Assembly: GCF_019879105.1 (NCBI RefSeq)
Contig: NZ_CP082248.1
Span: forward strand, 496,001 to 560,000
Source of the DNA: Natrinema sp. SYSU A 869
Lineage (GTDB): Archaea; Halobacteriota; Halobacteria; Halobacteriales; Natrialbaceae
Reading direction: 5' to 3'
Length of the DNA stretch: 64,000 nucleotides
Shown here in pieces: positions 9,259-49,926 of the stretch. Each line of letters begins with the position of its first letter. Position 1 is the stretch's first letter. Position numbers and translations under genes: made by a program. The notes under the pieces were generated by a model. The model was not told the origin of the DNA. It did no database searches and was given only the letters and a program-made list of their open reading frames with translations.

Positions 9259-9602
9259 TGGTGGCCGATCTGCTGACGTACGTCGACGAGATTGACGCAC
9301 CCGAGGACACGCTCACCGACTCGCAAGTGTGGGCGCTTCGCCAGGGCGTTCAGGCAGCGATCGATCGCGGTGACGAGAGTGTCTCACTTCCATCGAGAGC
9401 ACTCTCACCAGGCCGATGGCATCATTGGGGGATTGGCGTCTCCGTCTGGCTCCACGACAGCGGTGTCGTCGTCCTCCAGAAGGACGGGAACACGATCGTG
9501 ACCGATATCTCGATGCTCGAGCACGTTTCGCTGGTACTGGCTGGCGCCCACGCCAGGATCGGTCACGTGACACGGATCGGTCCAGAGAGAGGTGACGAGT
9601 GA
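9258..9602 (+). CDS. Uncharacterised plasmid protein
   Basis: A 114-residue protein overlapping its neighbour by ATGA. It contains a helical start (DSQVWALRQGVQAAIDRG) and a beta-hairpin core (WGIGVSVWLHDSGVVVLQKD). No catalytic motif seen. Third gene of the operon. Confidence 0.65.
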   Translation: MVADLLTYVDEIDAPEDTLTDSQVWALRQGVQAAIDRGDESVSLPSRALSPGRWHHWGIGVSVWLHDSGVVVLQKDGNTIVTDISMLEHVSLVLAGAHARIGHVTRIGPERGDE

Positions 9603-9994
9603 TGGCGATCGTCGACACTGAAGAGCGGTATGCTGGTGCGTTCGACACGGTGAAGTGTCCTGTCTGTGGCTCCGACGAATGGACACACCTTGTCTATCAG
9701 GGTGTTTTTTGTGCGACCTGCAACACTCGGTGTACGCTGCGTGAACCGTCTGGCGACCAGGGCTTCATCGCCGAGTTCGACAGCCAGTACACGTGGTCCA
9801 TCGAAGAGGCTGAGCCGATTCCCGAGACTGACGAGTACGGCGCGCTCGCGTCGGGCAAGTGGCTTGGGACCGAGTCTCGTGGCTACAATCGCTACTGGTT
9901 TTCGGCGTATGCAGACCACGTTGACGGACACGAGAACGAATGGGAGCCAGCGTGGGATCGAGAGACAGTGACCGCAGAAGCTAACGAGAGTTGA
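9602..9994 (+). CDS. Zinc-ribbon protein of unknown function
   Basis: A 130-residue protein starting at the second of two adjacent start codons so that it overlaps the upstream stop (TGATG). An N-terminal zinc ribbon (CPVCGSDEW...FCATCNTRC, residues 19-44) is followed by an aromatic C-terminal part (GYNRYWFSAYADHVDG). Last gene of the operon. It may contact nucleic acid or a protein partner through the ribbon; the role is unknown. Confidence 0.7.
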   Translation: MAIVDTEERYAGAFDTVKCPVCGSDEWTHLVYQGVFCATCNTRCTLREPSGDQGFIAEFDSQYTWSIEEAEPIPETDEYGALASGKWLGTESRGYNRYWFSAYADHVDGHENEWEPAWDRETVTAEANES

Positions 9995-10045
9995 ATCAGA
10001 CACGAAGACACCCAGCGACAGCACTGGACGCCCAGCTCCCCGCTC

Positions 10046-10079
10046 GGTGGTGTTGTTCTCCCCTCGAGAGGGGTGAGGG
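10046..10079 (+). promoter_or_regulatory. Hairpin leader element, copy 3
   Basis: GTGGTGTTGTTCT, then CCCC-TCGAGA-GGGG (10060-10073) and TGAGGG, with an ATG 8 bases later. The cleanest example of the element. Confidence 0.75.
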
Positions 10080-10087
10080 TTTGACAG

Positions 10088-10225
10088 ATGAGCCGATTCA
10101 GAGAGCTGAAACAGATTGTACAGCGAGCAGAACACTACGAAACCGACACGGGCCGAAAACTGCGCCTGCGTGCGGAAGCCGAGGTAACTGCTCGTAGTGG
10201 TTGGTTTCCGACGGTGGGACCGTAG
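10088..10225 (+). CDS. Very small basic protein
   Basis: A 45-residue ORF starting MSRFRELKQIVQRAEHYETD and ending WFPTVGP. Basic and helical, with no motif. Supported by the ideal spacing to the hairpin leader and by a 25-base overlap with the next gene. Confidence 0.55.
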   Translation: MSRFRELKQIVQRAEHYETDTGRKLRLRAEAEVTARSGWFPTVGP

Positions 10226-10404
10226 CCGCTGAGGCTACTCAGAGTGAGTCTGAGAAACCGACGTACATGCGGCATGTCGAACCGCCGGAACAGGGCGGGA
10301 AGGCGTACGTCCGGTGTACATACTGCGAACGCGAGCTGCTAGTCAAACTCGGTGGACAGGACAACCTGTCGCATGCGCCTGGCTGCCCGGAGCGTGAGTC
10401 GTGA
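10201..10404 (+). CDS. Small zinc-binding protein
   Basis: Contains GKAYVRCTYCERELLVKLGG followed by a His and a Cys (LSHAPGC), a C-x2-C...H-x3-C zinc site. The only long in-frame start is a TTG; an internal ATG at 10267 would give 45 residues and keeps the whole zinc site. Its stop overlaps the next start (TGATG). Confidence 0.6.
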   Translation: MVSDGGTVAAEATQSESEKPTYMRHVEPPEQGGKAYVRCTYCERELLVKLGGQDNLSHAPGCPERES

Positions 10405-10580
10405 TGAGCGAGTCCACCGACAGCTGGTCTGACGAACGAGTGCAGGCCGAACTCGAAGCAGTGCTAGCCGATCTGCAAACGCTCGAGGATCACTTGGCCG
10501 AGCCGTTGACCCTCTCAGGTGCGATCACTGAGCTCGAGACGACGCGTGCCATGTACGAACATTCGGTTGTGGAGGTGTGA
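10404..10580 (+). CDS. Small acidic coiled protein
   Basis: A 58-residue ORF beginning MSESTDSWSDERVQAELEAV, strongly acidic and predicted helical throughout. ATGA overlap with the upstream gene and a 2-base gap to the next support translation in an operon. No family recognised. Confidence 0.55.
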   Translation: MSESTDSWSDERVQAELEAVLADLQTLEDHLAEPLTLSGAITELETTRAMYEHSVVEV

Positions 10581-10582
10581 CG

Positions 10583-10747
10583 ATGCCCAACTGTTCAAAC
10601 TGTGGCGCACACGTCACAGAACAGTACAAGCGGGTATTTTCGGATAACACCGGAACGCTCCACGCCTGTCCGAACTGCCGATCCCAGCACGAGCGATTTT
10701 CAGGAGCAGGGGCTGGGCTAGCGGAGGGGGTGAATCATGGTAACTAA
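10583..10747 (+). CDS. Small zinc-ribbon protein
   Basis: A 54-residue protein with CSNCGAHVTEQYKRVFSD and CPNC, the compact two-knuckle zinc ribbon of a very common haloarchaeal small-protein family (probably DUF7563). Fourth gene of the short operon behind leader copy 3; its end overlaps the start of the broken HalOD1 gene. Confidence 0.7.
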   Translation: MPNCSNCGAHVTEQYKRVFSDNTGTLHACPNCRSQHERFSGAGAGLAEGVNHGN

Positions 10748-10990
10748 GCAAGTCGAATACGAGTAGGCGGAAACGCCGCTGAGCACCGCAATTCTCGAAG
10801 CGATCCGAGTCTCGAAAACTGCCCATCAACCGAGCTGGGACCAACCCACGGGATCGTCTTGTCCGACACAATCGACACTGAGGCGCTTGATCGGCTCGTC
10901 ACAACCGGCGAATCGGTGTCGGTCGCGTTCTCGGTTGGTGAGTATGACGTCAAACTCACCGAGAAGATACTGCTCGTTCGTGCCACCTGA
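10737..10990 (+). pseudogene. HalOD1 output-domain protein, broken
   Basis: MVTKQVEYE is followed by an in-frame TAG, then ETPLSTAILEAIRVSKTA. A frameshift then leads to SDTIDTEALDRLVTTGESVS and VAFSVGEYDVKLTEKILLVR. The IDTEALDRL and V.F..G.YDV.L patterns are diagnostic of HalOD1. It carries at least one nonsense and one frameshift change. Confidence 0.75.
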
Positions 10991-11230
10991 ACCACGAACG
11001 CTCGATCAGCAGTGAGTCATGCGAACTGTAGACTCTGTCTTAGTCTCAATTGGCTCTGTTGAAATCCTATTCTTCAGATGTATTTTAGCGTGAAACGCAT
11101 GCTCACTACACGTGCTTATTGACCGCGACGTCCGGTTCAAAACTACCCTCAAATAAAGACAGATGGTCGATTAATAGAGTTACGTCAGGAGTCGGTGAGG
11201 TGTGTAGGGTGACTGAGCGCGAGAACGCAT

Positions 11231-11587
11231 TTAATCGATAGCGACGGGTTGCACGTATCCGTCGATACGTGCTGTGTCAGCGAGGAACTGGTCAATCCCA
11301 TCCGTATCTCTCAGTTCAACGAGTTCCCTGTCCAATCGGAAAGAAACAATGCCCATGTCGGCAAGTTTTGGGAGGTGCGTGTGACGAAGGGCGGTCTCGA
11401 CGGCTTTCCTGTCTGCGCTTCGGCCCTCCCCCATCTGATCCCCGGCCCATTCAGTAATTGCGGTCGTGAGGGTGTCAACGCTGATCTCCTCCGATTCATA
11501 TGTCAGATAATACAACATGTAGCGACGGTACGGATGAGTCAAGAGGTCAAGTGTTTCAGTAAGTCGTGACGTATCTGGTTCTCCCAT
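11231..11587 (-). CDS. Haloarchaeal HTH regulator (DUF7344-type)
   Basis: A 118-residue protein: TETLDLLTHPYRRYMLYYLT is the start of the DUF7344 winged-helix fold that is widespread in haloarchaea, followed by LRHTHLPKLADMGIVSF, the recognition-wing segment typical of the family. The second of two tandem ATGs is taken as the start. It sits inside the inverted-repeat-bounded unit together with an Lrp gene, both transcribed leftward with a 171-base gap, so they may have separate promoters. Confidence 0.75.
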   Translation of the reverse strand: MGEPDTSRLTETLDLLTHPYRRYMLYYLTYESEEISVDTLTTAITEWAGDQMGEGRSADRKAVETALRHTHLPKLADMGIVSFRLDRELVELRDTDGIDQFLADTARIDGYVQPVAID

Positions 11588-11761
11588 CATGTATCGATTG
11601 GTCGTGAGCCTCTTAACCGCTTTTTTGCGATAACTCTACGTATTTTACAATCTCATGCAGAGACGAACTGCGGGTTGACTTTTCCAAGCAAAATGTGTGT
11701 CATCCGGGCCGCTGTTGGCAAAAGTTTAATAATTCAATGTTCATAATCGTTCTGGGAGTCA

Positions 11762-12277
11762 CTATTCCTCTGAGGAACCAATTTCAGAGGGTGTTTCGGC
11801 ATCCTCGCCCGCAAACTCTTGGTGGAAGTGATTCCACGGTTGGATATGTTCCTCCGCCAGAATATTGCTACTGATGATCCGCAGGCCCAGTTCGTCTAAC
11901 TGTTCGGTACTTTCTTTAACGTCAGATGTTGCCTCGGCCACGACTTCAACATGGAGGTTCTCCTCACCGGCCAACATCTCCCGAACGTTGACAACTCCCC
12001 GTACCTCAAGTGCTTTCTCGGCCATTTCCGACCGTCGAGAGAGATTGATCGAACAGATGAACAAGACGCGCATCGGATAGCCTGCCTGCTCGTAATTGAT
12101 CTCCGGATTATATCCGATAATAACCCCTTCCTCCTCCAGTTGTTTGATTCGGTTATTGATCGTTGTCCCAGTGACATCAGTCTCATCGGCAATGGCCGTA
12201 TCGCTGGCACCACGGGCGTCTATCTGTAATAAGTGTAGGATACGGCGATCGAGATTGTTGAGCGGATCATCGACCAT
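11762..12277 (-). CDS. Lrp/AsnC-family transcriptional regulator
   Basis: A 171-residue protein with an N-terminal HTH (LDRRILHLLQIDARGASDTA to TINNRIKQLEEEGVIIGYNP) and an RAM/ligand-binding domain (YPMRVLFICSINLSRRSEMA ... EENLHVEVVAEATSDVKEST). The C-terminal tail is longer and more acidic than usual. Such regulators sense amino acids or related metabolites. Located as a passenger in the inverted-repeat unit; it could control genes outside it. Confidence 0.85.
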   Translation of the reverse strand: MVDDPLNNLDRRILHLLQIDARGASDTAIADETDVTGTTINNRIKQLEEEGVIIGYNPEINYEQAGYPMRVLFICSINLSRRSEMAEKALEVRGVVNVREMLAGEENLHVEVVAEATSDVKESTEQLDELGLRIISSNILAEEHIQPWNHFHQEFAGEDAETPSEIGSSEE

Positions 12278-12506
12278 GGCAGTAATTCACTGTCAAGCCA
12301 GTTGAATCGAGTGCCTGAACCAGAATACGGAGGGTGAGGATGAAAACTGTTGATGGCACATCCATACACGTACCGAGCGGCAACTACTTCATCTGTACTT
12401 ACCGCAGAGGGTGCCAAACCTATCATGTTCTAAGGATTTCAACAGAGCCTCTCGATTGTATCACTTGGGTTCTCTGTAGCCCTCTGTGCTTCCGACGCGA
12501 TCGACC

Positions 12507-12732: not shown

Positions 12733-12813
12733 ATGACGATCGAGATCCAGAACACGATGGCGTGGGTGGTGGCGAGCGTGGGGTCGAAGATGGTTGGGGT
12801 GCATGGCGAGTGA
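12733..12813 (+). CDS. Possible very small protein
   Basis: A 26-residue ORF (MTIEIQNTMAWVVASVGSKM...) eight bases after the previous stop. The hydrophobic stretch could be a short membrane segment. Too short to be sure it is translated. Confidence 0.3.
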   Translation: MTIEIQNTMAWVVASVGSKMVGVHGE

Positions 12814-12846
12814 CTATGACTTTGAGCGATATATTTTGTCCGGAGG

Positions 12847-12880
12847 AAGAAATATATGTGTTACTCCCGTTGGTAGGAGT
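12847..12880 (+). promoter_or_regulatory. TATA box and operator-like inverted repeat
   Basis: AGAAATATATG is centred about 28 bases before the ATG at 12881, as in leaderless haloarchaeal promoters. Between it and the start codon lies ACTCC...GGAGT (12863-12867 and 12876-12880), an inverted repeat placed to block initiation, suggesting autoregulation by the HTH protein it precedes. Confidence 0.5.
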
Positions 12881-13399
12881 ATGACAGACGATGGCCGTCA
12901 CGACGGCCCGCCCCCGTTCGATAGACCGTTCGAAGGCGAGGACACGAAGCAGCGCGTGTACGGTGCGGTGTTACACGCTCGAGAGCCGATGACGGCCGCC
13001 GAGATTGCCGAGCGGGCAGACTGCTCGGGGGAGTCGGCACGGACACACCTGTCCTTCTACGCCGACCTCGGCATCGTCATTCGGCATGAGGGCCGGCCGG
13101 TTAGGTACGAGCGCAACGACGACTATTTCGAGTGGCGGCGGGTCAACAAGCTGGCGCGGGAGAACACTGTCGACGAGTTGCAGGCCCGCGTGTCGGAGTT
13201 GACCGACCGGATCGAGGAGTACCGCGGCGAATATGGGGTCGACTCGCCCGCCGAGGTTGATGTCCTCGAGTTCGACGCGGAGCGGATTGACGACGTGTAC
13301 GTGGAACTCGGTAATTGGGCCACCCTCATTGAGGAGCGTCGCCTACACGAACGCGCCAGGAGAAAGGCCGCCGGCTCGACGGCCCCGTCGCACAGCTGA
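12881..13399 (+). CDS. HTH regulator of a putative toxin-antitoxin pair (DUF7342-type)
   Basis: A 172-residue protein. Residues about 20-80 form a winged HTH (TKQRVYGAVLHAREPMTAAE, ERADCSGESARTHLSFYADL); residues 80-130 are a coiled coil (VDELQARVSELTDRIEEYRG). The ATG adjoining the TATA/operator is chosen over an upstream start. The gene is followed one base after its stop by a TumE-like gene, a common haloarchaeal pairing in which the HTH protein is thought to act as regulator or antitoxin. Confidence 0.75.
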   Translation: MTDDGRHDGPPPFDRPFEGEDTKQRVYGAVLHAREPMTAAEIAERADCSGESARTHLSFYADLGIVIRHEGRPVRYERNDDYFEWRRVNKLARENTVDELQARVSELTDRIEEYRGEYGVDSPAEVDVLEFDAERIDDVYVELGNWATLIEERRLHERARRKAAGSTAPSHS

Positions 13400-13990: not shown

Positions 13991-14239
13991 TTGAGTTGGA
14001 GACGAGCGATCGCCGGCCAAGACGAGCCACATGGCCTTGCAATCAAGGACGAACTTGAGAAGTATTACGAGACAGAGATCCACCACGGCACTCCACCCCT
14101 CGCTGTCGTCGTAATGACAAGCTCGAAACCACAAATGCAGTCCGAGAATGCACCGGTATCACAGGCAGACCAGATAATCGAGAAGCCAACAGATGCCGAG
14201 ATGTACGTTGAACTGCTCCGACCATACCTCACCGCTTAA
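13991..14239 (+). pseudogene. PadR-family regulator fragment
   Basis: IAGQDEPHGLAIKDELEKYY followed by ETEIHHG is the hallmark of haloarchaeal PadR regulators (helix alpha1-alpha3 up to IHHGRLYPNLD). Here the sequence departs after HHG into TPPLAVVV, so the recognition wing is lost. The rest of the frame (MTSSKPQMQSENAPVSQADQ...) is unrelated. Only about 34 codons of the original gene remain. Confidence 0.75.
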
Positions 14240-14779
14240 TAAGCATAGATAGTTGCCGTTCAGTACAGGAGAAAGAATAATCGAAAGTCGGCCGGCCGGG
14301 GTAGTTATCTTCCTCTCTGGACACAATCCGGATGATATACACCAAGGCCGCTATTGCTTCCCACGCTCGCTTTGTACAGTCGTCTCCCCTCAATCTCCTG
14401 ACCACACACGTTACACATCATTAGCACTTCTACCTGATTACGCTATTAAGCGCTATTGTGACTACAGGAGTAGTTACAGCAGTGTTGTTATCCGTGGACA
14501 GCACTTCTGCTCAGTACGCACACGTAGTTATCGCGGTGTTCAGCTAACCTCCGAGTGAATAGAAGATTATGAAGCACCCTTTCAACTCAACTGCCCTGGG
14601 GTTTCCCGTCGACAAATCCCATTCCCCGAATATGCACACGAGCCGCGACTCGTCGTGTGCATATATCGAGTCGATCCGTTGTTCGAGCCGCCGTTCGTAT
14701 CTGGATAGCCGATACGTTCCGACGTTTGGACCGAAATAGGTTGTTCAGTGAGCCGAAAAGCTAGGATTTCGGGGGTCGT
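14240..14779. other. Interval without a gene
   Basis: No coding region, repeat or RNA gene recognised. Composition is AT-richer than the neighbouring genes, and short inverted repeats are not conserved elsewhere in the window. Confidence 0.5.
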
Positions 14780-23940: not shown

Positions 23941-26378
23941 CACCCCGTGTACAAAGTGTATTCTCAGGTTTTGAAGAAGCAGGCCCCGTGTGCGATATGA
24001 ATTAGACCAGGAATCACCCCGTGTGCAAAGTGAAATCGGAGAGAGAACACCTCCGTCACAAACCCGTCAGAGAATAGAGCATATTTTACAGTAAATTAAA
24101 TATTGGAATATGACTAGTTAGAAGGTGGGGGTCCGTGTGAGAGATGAATATCATGTATTGGTGACATATTCCCTAGTAAAATAACCTATTGACATGTTTG
24201 GGCCATACCCCGTGTGCGATATGAAATCGGGAGAATGTCAAACTACCTGTCTGCTATTTTCCTTCGAAGAAATCCTCAATCTGAGCGTTAACAACGGACT
24301 TGACCAAGTCCTCGTCGTGTTCGACTTCCTCGAGTCGGATATCTGACTGTAGTGTTTCAGCAACTACTTCGGGATCATCAACGAACGTGTATTCCTTATG
24401 AACTCCGCTACCGTAGCCCCGTCCTCGTTTATCTGACGTGACAAAATTATAGGTCTCCGCTTCGCTCATGTATCGAAGATAGGAATCGCGCGATTTTTCG
24501 TCAGTATCCAGGATATCAGTGATATACTGATAAACTCGGTACGCAACAGTGCTCGGAACAGCATTCAGGTTCCGCTGAGAGTGGATAGGGACAACGGCAG
24601 TCGCATAGAGTGAGAGTTTCTTCTGTGTCGAAAGCCCTTGCATCTGTGTTAAGGTACGGTCGCGCTCGGCCTCTTTCTGAGCACCACGGACGTGCTCTTC
24701 GCGCACCATATCTTCTCCTTGCCGATCCGCAATCTCGCCTGCTTTCCGGAAAAGGTCAATCGCTTTCCGTGCGTCACCGTGGTCCTGCGCAGCGTACGCC
24801 GAGCTGAGAGGAATGATACCATCCTCAAGGACATCCTCCTGGTAAGCATCGCGACGACGTCCCAGAATCGACTGAAGTTGATTCGCATCGTAGTCCGGGA
24901 ATACGACATCCTGCGGATTGAATGAACTCTCTGCTCGTCCATCGAGGTTCTCCATGAACCGTGGATCATTTGTGAGAGCTGCGACTGAAACGTGTCCTTC
25001 GATTCGTCCTAGCTGAGATGCACGAGAGAGTTGATAGAGTAACTTCGAGTATGCTGGCTCATCATTTGGTTCGCGTTGCCGGCCGACAAGGAGATCAACC
25101 TCGTCAAGAATGATAATGACAGAGTCGAAATAATCGCTCAAAATTTCGTAGAACCGATTCAGTTTCTGGTCAGTTGAGACACCGCTCTCAGGAACCCCAG
25201 GATCGACGCCGACTTCGATTGCTGCACTTTCAACGAGTCGATAGACAGCACGATCGTGGGATTTGATCGTCTGACAGTTGACTCTAATTACGCCGAATCG
25301 ATCTTCTTGAGCGTTTGCTAGCTCTAGAACCTGCTGACAGACAGCATTGATGATGAGTGATTTTCCGGTCCCAGATGGGCCGTAGAGAAGCATGTTCGGA
25401 GGGCGATTACCTTGGAGGGCAGGTCGGAGGTATGTGATAATATCGTCCAGTTGCTGATCGCGACCAACGATTCTGTCTTCGTCAATGACGGCATCTGGGT
25501 CGAGGAGTCCTTTGTCTTTGAAAACAGAATTCTGGACCCCCTCTTGAAGACGGCCTTTAATGGATTGTGAGAGAGACTGTTGTTCGTCGCCGTCAGCCAT
25601 GTTATCGGGATACAGTCCATTCCATAAATAGATGTGGGTACCGTGTGCGATGTTAAATACTCCGAATTCACCAGATATAGGCGCAGTATAGGGGGAGTCA
25701 TTTCAAAGACATCTAACCGCGGGCGAAATCAAACAGAAGAGGCACCCCGTGTGCGATATGAAATAGTGCAGATCACCATTAGAAGATAGGAGTAGAGCCT
25801 CACCCCATGTGCGAAATGAAATAGCGGCCGGAAGAATGCCACCTTTCTATACCCAAAGACATAGGTTTCCCATCCAGAGTTGGCCAGCGGGTTAATCCTG
25901 AAGGGGAGAATTCAGGGCTTTTAGCAGTCATACAGGAGATCGCTAAGAGATCCGCCCCTGAAAGTCAAGTAGCATACCCAGATCAAGAAACAAGGATCGT
26001 TTGACCCCCACACCCCGTGTGCGATATGAATTTGCGAAAGGCACAGGCAACCTTCTTGAGAGGAATTGTATAGAAAACTGTTAGAGAGATGCCAGCGACG
26101 GAGTTCTGAACGTAAACAGCGATTAGATAGAGGATCTAAATGAGGCAACTCTACTAAGATCTGCTGAAATATCTATCTCATTTCAGCGGTCTCTAACTCT
26201 AGTGCGGCTTTGGTTTCCGGAGAAACAATATAAATCTTCCCATTGAAATAGACTTTCCCTTGTTCTTCCAGTACAGCACCTCTCTTTCGGAGTAATCGGC
26301 ATATAGGGTGTAAGATCCATTAAATCGATAATCAACCCTCCCACCTTTTCGTTGATTTCATATCGCACACGGGGTGTG
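23941..26378. repeat. Replication origin iterons around orc1/cdc6
   Basis: The sequence CCCCGTGTGCGATATGAAA or close variants occurs at 23941, 23983, 24014, 24127 (weak), 24205, 25638 (weak), 25742, 25800 and 26010 on the plus strand and at 26355-26378 on the minus strand. The copies flank the Orc1/Cdc6 gene on both sides. This is the expected arrangement of origin recognition boxes and an origin in haloarchaea. The interval 25.6-26.5 kb is otherwise AT-rich and gene-free, a likely unwinding region. Confidence 0.85.
24254..25600 (-). CDS. orc1: Orc1/Cdc6 replication initiator
   Basis: A 448-residue AAA+ initiator. Walker A is LLYGPSGTGKSL (residues about 71-82), Walker B IIILDEVDLL (about 162-171); sensor-type segments follow (VAALTNDPRFMENLDGRAES). 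The C-terminal winged helix spans roughly residues 320-430 (STVAYRVYQYITDILDTDEK, GRGYGSGVHKEYTFVDDPEV). Length is slightly above the 400-residue average for the family. It would bind the iterons on both sides of its own gene and load the MCM helicase. A weak iteron lies just upstream of its start, suggesting autoregulation. Confidence 0.95.
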   Translation of the reverse strand: MADGDEQQSLSQSIKGRLQEGVQNSVFKDKGLLDPDAVIDEDRIVGRDQQLDDIITYLRPALQGNRPPNMLLYGPSGTGKSLIINAVCQQVLELANAQEDRFGVIRVNCQTIKSHDRAVYRLVESAAIEVGVDPGVPESGVSTDQKLNRFYEILSDYFDSVIIILDEVDLLVGRQREPNDEPAYSKLLYQLSRASQLGRIEGHVSVAALTNDPRFMENLDGRAESSFNPQDVVFPDYDANQLQSILGRRRDAYQEDVLEDGIIPLSSAYAAQDHGDARKAIDLFRKAGEIADRQGEDMVREEHVRGAQKEAERDRTLTQMQGLSTQKKLSLYATAVVPIHSQRNLNAVPSTVAYRVYQYITDILDTDEKSRDSYLRYMSEAETYNFVTSDKRGRGYGSGVHKEYTFVDDPEVVAETLQSDIRLEEVEHDEDLVKSVVNAQIEDFFEGK

Positions 26379-26538
26379 GGGGTTCACCTTCGCGGTGCGA
26401 TCTATGCAAGAAGGAGATCTTGTAGGGTGAATCGTCTTAGGGTCAAGCCCCGAGAATTCTCCTATACTGCTTGCCAAAAGCACTCTCCACAGAGGAAGCC
26501 TTGCTCTTCAGCGTGAGGAAGAATGCGTATACTGGATT

Positions 26539-49032: not shown

Positions 49033-49926
49033 TTGCTGTTGATAGACAGGGACTCGGTAGAAGTGTTCCTTCCTGATCCGGACGACTGCTACGAGCGACT
49101 CCGTCGCGCCCGCTTCGGCGCGACGGTGTCGTGCGTCTATTGCGGGGAGAGCGATCCAGTCATCAAGAAGGGAACGACGGGAAAAGACGCTCAACAGTAC
49201 CGGTGCAAGGAGTGTGAGACGTATTTCAACGATTTCGCGGACTCATTTTTCGAGCATCGCAAGTTCCCCATCGAGGAGATGTTCTACATGATCAAGGAGA
49301 TGTGATCTGTGCCGACCGCACAGATCGCGTCGGAACTGCAGCGAGACTACGAAGCGGTGTTGAACTTCCGTCACGATCTGCAGGAGTTGTGCGGTGAGTT
49401 GGACGATCTGACGCTTTCGGACGTGTGTGAAGCCGACGAAATCTACGTGACAGCGGGTGAGAAGGGGATCGAGAAGGAAGATGAGAGTCCGCGCTCGCGC
49501 GGACTCAAAAAGGGACGAGGAAGCTTCGAATCGGACAAACCGCCAGTCGTGACACTCGTCCGTCGCTCCGACGGACGAGTTGAGTTTCTGGTTCAAGAAA
49601 CTCTCCAGGACGTGAACGAAGAGATTGCCGACCGGGGTGATGAGACGGTGATTCTGTGTACCGACGACTATACGATCTACGATGACATCGACGAATACGA
49701 CGGAATTGACGCTCATCTAGCGATCACGCACGATGACACGTATGTGATCGGTAACGCCCACGTAAACAGCTGTGAGAACCGCCACAGCTTCCTTCGCCAG
49801 TGGCTGGCGAAGTTCAGAGGCGTCTCGAATCATCATCTTCAGGGCTCCCTCAACTTTCTCGCTCTCTTGCTGAATGATGACGTCAACTGGTTCAGCAAAA
49901 TCCTGAGTTACGAGTCATCGAGATGA
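49033..49926 (+). pseudogene. IS1595-family transposase with in-frame stop
   Basis: First part: zinc ribbon CVYCGESDP...YRCKECETYFNDF, then FPIEEMFYMIKEM and TGA at 49303-49305. The same frame continues PTAQIASELQRDYEAVLNFR, the DDE domain (SDVCEADEIYVTAGEKGIEK, TDDYTIYDDIDEYDGIDAHL) and the C-terminal ENRHSFLRQWLAKFRGVSNH. One nonsense change divides an otherwise complete 297-codon gene. No clear terminal repeats found around it. Confidence 0.85.

Follow-up and report, generated by a model that had tools for sequence, protein, structure and literature searches.

A MIC-like, transposase-less IS5 derivative with two regulator genes in a Natrinema plasmid module, and probable replacement of cargo between its fixed ends

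Introduction

Mobile insertion cassettes (MICs; defined in PMC3129680), of which MIC231 of Bacillus cereus is an example (cited in PMC6542083), carry passenger genes between IS ends without a transposase, and an intact related IS is expected to activate them in trans. Transporter ISs combine an IS with passenger genes (PMC3129680). Haloarchaeal MITEs are transposase-free, with transposon-related ends and target duplications, and in Haloquadratum an ISH2-type MITE is the sole one reported with an open reading frame (PMC3119063). In Haloquadratum walsbyi, unrelated DNA is also found at identical positions in deletion-coupled insertions, whose mechanism is not known and for which the 2011 paper reports no conserved targeting sequence (PMC3119063). 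In Pseudomonas, TIMEs and mosaic non-autonomous transposons move other genomic DNA and rearrange genes (PMC4133298).

Here, we describe a unit of 1,398 bp from Natrinema sp. SYSU A 869, lying in a stretch of 64,000 nucleotides that was analysed as a whole (the window). Like MICs, it has IS ends around passenger genes and no transposase, with activation in trans to be expected; unlike them, its family has IS5-type ends, an archaeal host, many unrelated cargoes and what appears to be in-place replacement at fixed sites. Transporter ISs resemble its transposase-bearing relatives (L084, L094, L096, L160, and others), which are ISs with additional genes of no role in transposition, and differ from the unit itself, which has no transposase. 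The relatives share with IS5-family ISs a match to NF033579 well over cut-off, terminal inverted repeats and, in this group, 8-bp duplications, a placement made at the family level; the unit is a derivative and not an IS5 element, because no IS5-type DDE transposase lies between its ends. The unit is transposase-free, with transposon-related ends and a target duplication, as MITEs are, but it is longer and has two protein-coding genes. As in deletion-coupled insertions, unrelated DNA stands at an identical position in related replicons (sites 1 and 2, below), but transposon end modules enclose the exchanged DNA in the present case, and the borders fall at the inner edges of those modules. TIMEs are likewise non-autonomous but have Tn3-family ends and are bacterial, and they are not reported to replace cargo at fixed sites (PMC4133298). 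A search mostly outside subscription journals found no papers on archaeal IS5 elements with passenger genes.

Results

Sequence reading and profile matches confirmed the perfect inverted pair and octamers that the first-pass annotation had placed around two genes, of the DUF7344 and Lrp/AsnC types, without a transposase (Table 1). The 1,366 bp between the 16-bp repeats contain the two protein-coding genes, each on the minus strand, and no recognisable transposase was found among the ORFs listed there. The Lrp/AsnC-type protein scored under all NCBIfam equivalog cut-offs. The flanking octamers, TCTCAATT and TCTCGATT, match at 7 of 8 positions, so the target duplication is imperfect by one base. 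The 16-mer GGCTCTGTTGAAATCC occurs at only two places in the window with up to 3 mismatches allowed (shuffles average 0.47), and Markov simulations gave a mean of 0.075 perfect 16-bp inverted pairs 0.3 to 3 kb apart per window. Other such pairs in the window are confined to a repeat cluster at 23.9 to 26.4 kb and one pair at 45.8/48.5 kb. The A and B' modules are asymmetric, although both begin with the same 16-bp repeat, and beyond the 16-mer the B' end differs from the B end that adjoins transposase genes in relatives.

Table 1. Features of the element and its flanks in the window, and coordinates of related MITEs (locus numbering)
Feature	Coordinates	Strand	Basis
Left flank, plasmid module common to other replicons	9300..11043	.	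88-95% identical stretches, several G028 replicons
Left target-site octamer TCTCAATT	11044..11051	.	Direct sequence reading
Left terminal inverted repeat GGCTCTGTTGAAATCC, 16 bp	11052..11067	+	Read in sequence; mismatch-tolerant search
A-end module, 64 bp	11052..11115	+	Conservation among elements to base 64, chance level past base 64
Cargo segment, putatively exchangeable	11116..12393	.	No blastn match to L183/L184 cargo at the same site
DUF7344 gene, 119 aa, predicted winged helix	11231..11590	-	PF24035, E 5.7e-20
Lrp/AsnC-type regulator gene, 171 aa	11762..12277	-	HTH_24, E 2.7e-10; HTH_AsnC-type, E 8.7e-9
B'-end module, 56 bp	12394..12449	-	Conservation among elements to base 56
Right terminal inverted repeat, exact reverse complement of GGCTCTGTTGAAATCC	12434..12449	-	Read in sequence
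Right target-site octamer TCTCGATT	12450..12457	.	Direct sequence reading
Right flank of same plasmid module	12458..13834	.	~90-96% identical stretches, G028 and G023 replicons
DUF7342 winged-helix gene in right flank	12794-13399	+	Pfam
MITE with perfect 8-bp duplication	L093 5747-5871		
MITE with perfect 8-bp duplication	L107 3951-4075		
MITE with perfect 8-bp duplication	L247 7780-7904		
MITE with perfect 8-bp duplication	L186 2207-2330		

The flanks are shared with several replicons of two relatives, G028 and G023, which correspond to plasmid records from Natrinema zhouii and Natrinema sp. DC36. Around the element, ~10738-10990 is a probable HalOD1 pseudogene (the frame from 10738 meets TAG after nine codons), at the place of which relatives such as L328 and L324 have an annotated HalOD1 gene, and 13991-14246 is a response-regulator gene remnant, of which 14089-14246 (158 bp) is 95% identical to a response-regulator gene adjoining an A end in G028 C5 (L185). 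Farther along, 23941-26383 holds dispersed direct and inverted CACCCCGTGTGCGATATGAAAT copies, perfect up to 27 bp; at a guess, these resemble a plasmid replication origin.

The exact 16-mer was present in 25 of 29 same-genus genomes, with zero matches for a reversed control, and the loci examined contained 19 further inverted pairs with perfect 8-bp duplications (417 to 3,695 bp). MITEs of 124-125 bp with near-identical ends occur in Natrinema and Haloferax, some with perfect 8-bp duplications (Table 1). On the same replicon as the window, L040 4400-4679 has a window-type A end beside a 71-aa HalOD1 gene; a second end was looked for there and none was found.

Complete relatives that share these 16-bp ends and have 8-bp duplications encode a transposase of the IS5 family, a basic protein recognised by reading all frames. 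Its 273-aa gene usually starts 52 bp inside the B end, and the product matches DDE_Tnp_1 and scores 215-220 bits against NF033579 (IS5 equivalog; cut-off, 140). A genome contig scan placed close relatives in many genera. Both ends and an octamer pair (≤2 mismatches) were recovered in 34 of 80 loci (length, 1,071-5,124 bp), and at least one additional candidate ORF was present in 45 of 48 examined elements (mechanical calls, some possibly spurious). The transposase-bearing relatives are IS5 elements with passenger genes, among them HTH_10/BAT regulators, HalOD1, DUF7344, AsnC, a PAS histidine kinase, IlvD, MATE, methyltransferase, thioredoxin, and others. Across the family, cargo includes cupin, acetyltransferase, SCO1-like, hydrolase, thioredoxin, MATE, lipoprotein, and small membrane proteins. 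The description of the cargo as regulators alone thus fits the window copy and fails for the family, in which cargo scans turned up many other proteins. As a family rule it was rejected, since BAT/HTH_10, HalOD1, DUF7344, and AsnC recur and metabolic and membrane genes do likewise.

In the genome of the window, no intact close transposase was found, only decayed close copies, which makes present mobility of the element doubtful. IS6-type transposase copies number more than 20 in that genome and near-full-length IS5-type ones ~15, many of them on the two smaller contigs. The IS5-type copies are 44-47% identical to the query and have ends of another type (GGCTGTGTTGAATC/GGCTCTGTTGAATC), so they are not obvious helpers. 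The 16-mer resembles IS6 ends; the IS6 family was considered and set aside, as the majority of IS6 transposases here are flanked by ends of another kind (GGCACTGTCTAGTT). PF12762 matched once in the window (49414-49845) and once elsewhere on the contig, and neither a GGCTCTGTTGAAATCC-type end nor long inverted repeats were found near the match in the window.

Halophilic archaeon DL31 has a transposase-bearing sibling on its plasmid phalar01. Between its B end and its A end, which are flanked by mutually non-matching octamers, this sibling carries transposase Halar_0346, a second AsnC gene, and Lrp Halar_0343, with a DUF7344 gene adjoining the A end. The order Lrp-DUF7344-A end is common to this element and the window element; Halar_0343 is 85% and the DL31 DUF7344 protein 43% identical to the window proteins. 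Lrp-DUF7344 pairs also occur on chromosomes of the genus, near which no GGCTCTGTTGAAATCC-type ends were found, and the simplest reading is that a host regulator pair was captured by the element family.

The position of the window element (site 1) is occupied by other cargo in related replicons. In G028 C3 (L183), the same end modules and octamer class enclose a lone response regulator (688-bp element), and in G028 C4 (L184), the same ends enclose a lone 1,053-aa PAS histidine kinase (3,501 bp; octamers, 8/8). No similarity among the three interiors was detected by blastn. In relatives, the octamer at this site reads TCTCGATT; the remaining copies of site 1 are rearranged. Ends of the site-1 type are present elsewhere too (e.g., L089 and L040). 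An empty site with a single octamer-like copy, of the kind that the first-pass annotation suggested looking for, was found in relatives, for example, in Natronococcus sp. AD-5, where uninterrupted site 1 reads ...GTCGATTGTACC...

At site 2 (octamer GAATACGT), six elements in four genomes have homologous flanks (83-99%) and end modules in common, with no blastn similarity among their six interiors; a seventh copy, in N. thermotolerans, has cargo 98% identical to that of L314. The first base of the site-2 A end is A, not G, in all copies. The inner sequence of this end had 14 matches in 125 genomes of the family, 13 of them in the genus and all in one and the same left flank, and the remaining one diverged and in another genus. 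In several of the 13, the right side is absent or rearranged. The site-2 left flank and A end are fused to a different right side in L344, L345, L346, and L348, where a winged-helix gene pair is like (by eye) the DUF7342-type pair to the right of the window element. Site 2 is uninterrupted in Natronorubrum aibiense, Natrinema sp. DC36, and Natribaculum breve.

High pairwise identity extends at both sites across the flanks and through the end modules. It is ~1.0 over most of the final bases ending at A +64 and B +56, and past these points it drops to the level expected by chance. Ends within a site are more alike than those of random element groups (1 to 19 of 5,000 permutations reach the observed likeness, a figure that is not a strict probability because the sequences are related). 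The sharp borders and the empty sites in relatives argue that each site was probably filled once and its contents were replaced afterwards.

Discussion

We hold with high confidence that the window unit is a MIC-like IS5 derivative. It shares its 16-bp repeat with IS5 transposase-bearing elements, carries passengers without a transposase, and has a target duplication (7/8, and 8/8 in L184). The alternative in which there is no element and the repeats are just a motif due to chance or to coding sequence could appeal to octamers one base apart, but it is scarcely credible in view of inverted pairs with perfect duplications throughout the genus, a reversed control without hits, uninterrupted sites, and transposase-bearing relatives. 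The first-pass annotation was right to see a non-autonomous, transposon-like unit that probably depends, or once depended, on a transposase in trans; the IS5 enzyme of relatives with the same 16-bp repeat is a candidate for that role. Its count of two IS1595-type copies in the window was not confirmed, PF12762 having matched once there, and IS1595-type enzymes as the probable mobilising ones found no support. Duplications of 8 bp are compatible with the IS1595 family, and one match to it lies inside the window; even so, membership in that family is most improbable, as no same-ended element was found with an IS1595-type transposase, complete relatives have that of IS5, and the window match stands apart from GGCTCTGTTGAAATCC-type ends and long inverted repeats.

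As an account of the whole locus, a transposase-less, MIC-like IS5 derivative with cargo replaced in place seems likely from the sequences compared; replacement within a fixed frame is well supported at site 2 and reasonably supported at site 1. The window element could instead be an internal deletion of a DL31-like, transposase-bearing element after a single insertion, with the cargo of relatives a separate matter. The shared order of A end, DUF7344, and Lrp and the 85% identical Lrp speak for such an origin, but the DUF7344 proteins are just 43% identical, the B' end has its closer match in transposase-less cassettes that carry other cargo, not in the B end of DL31, and the same frame contains other cargo in relatives, so we think it rather unlikely. 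Slightly less probable still are independent insertions of different cassettes, each with its own cargo, into one preferred target. Octamer identity would follow from homologous flanks, and separate insertions are conceivable at site 1 taken alone because ends of its type occur elsewhere, which points to mobile donors. Against this stand the unusual first base and the site-specific end variant in all site-2 copies, together with the near confinement of that variant to one left flank; it is unlikely that cassettes inserted again and again at one base and each time brought that variant. Differential loss from a large, multi-gene ancestral element, each lineage retaining a different piece, is quite improbable: some transposase-bearing relatives are multi-gene, and the DL31 element has Lrp, DUF7344, and others, but no single element holds two of the swapped cargoes, and random deletions would hardly end at the same base at both ends of two sites.

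Under the preferred reading of in-place replacement, a cargo-bearing derivative of a haloarchaeal IS5-family element would have been mobilised in trans by a related IS5 transposase and inserted into the plasmid module, creating the 8-bp target duplication. The frame (octamers and end modules) would have stayed while separate plasmid lineages received new DNA between the modules, resulting in the Lrp-DUF7344 pair in the window and a lone response regulator or lone PAS histidine kinase elsewhere. Replacement may have proceeded by recombination at short stretches conserved on the inner side of the end modules (CACTACAxGTGC and CTCTGCGGTAAGTACA), a route preferred because these innermost blocks are the longest common to both sites. 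Recombination in the flanks can spread an allele but cannot deliver new cargo at the same border, and if different elements recombined inside the end modules, the inner ends would be expected to contain donor sequence. The site-2 specific end variant extends to the cargo border, which is why the exchange is placed at the inner motifs. Action of a border-specific enzyme is a less favoured possibility. The products of exchange are seen in the sequences; the route between elements is one that we infer from them.

More tentatively, immobilised IS5 frames in haloarchaeal plasmids might act as docking sites, whose cargo, often sensors or regulators, is swapped exactly at the inner borders through a previously undescribed, border-specific recombination process; such sites might account for some of the unexplained deletion-coupled insertions. 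The origin of those insertions, open since 2011 (PMC3119063), becomes testable at defined borders. Each of the two sites offers a natural series of unrelated genes set into one transposon frame at an unchanged base position, and the locus places haloarchaeal small regulator genes within a widespread IS5-type cargo element family. The Lrp/AsnC and DUF7344 genes of the window may have a regulatory effect, and in-place replacement would offer sensing and regulatory genes on plasmids a way to be exchanged with their neighbours undisturbed.
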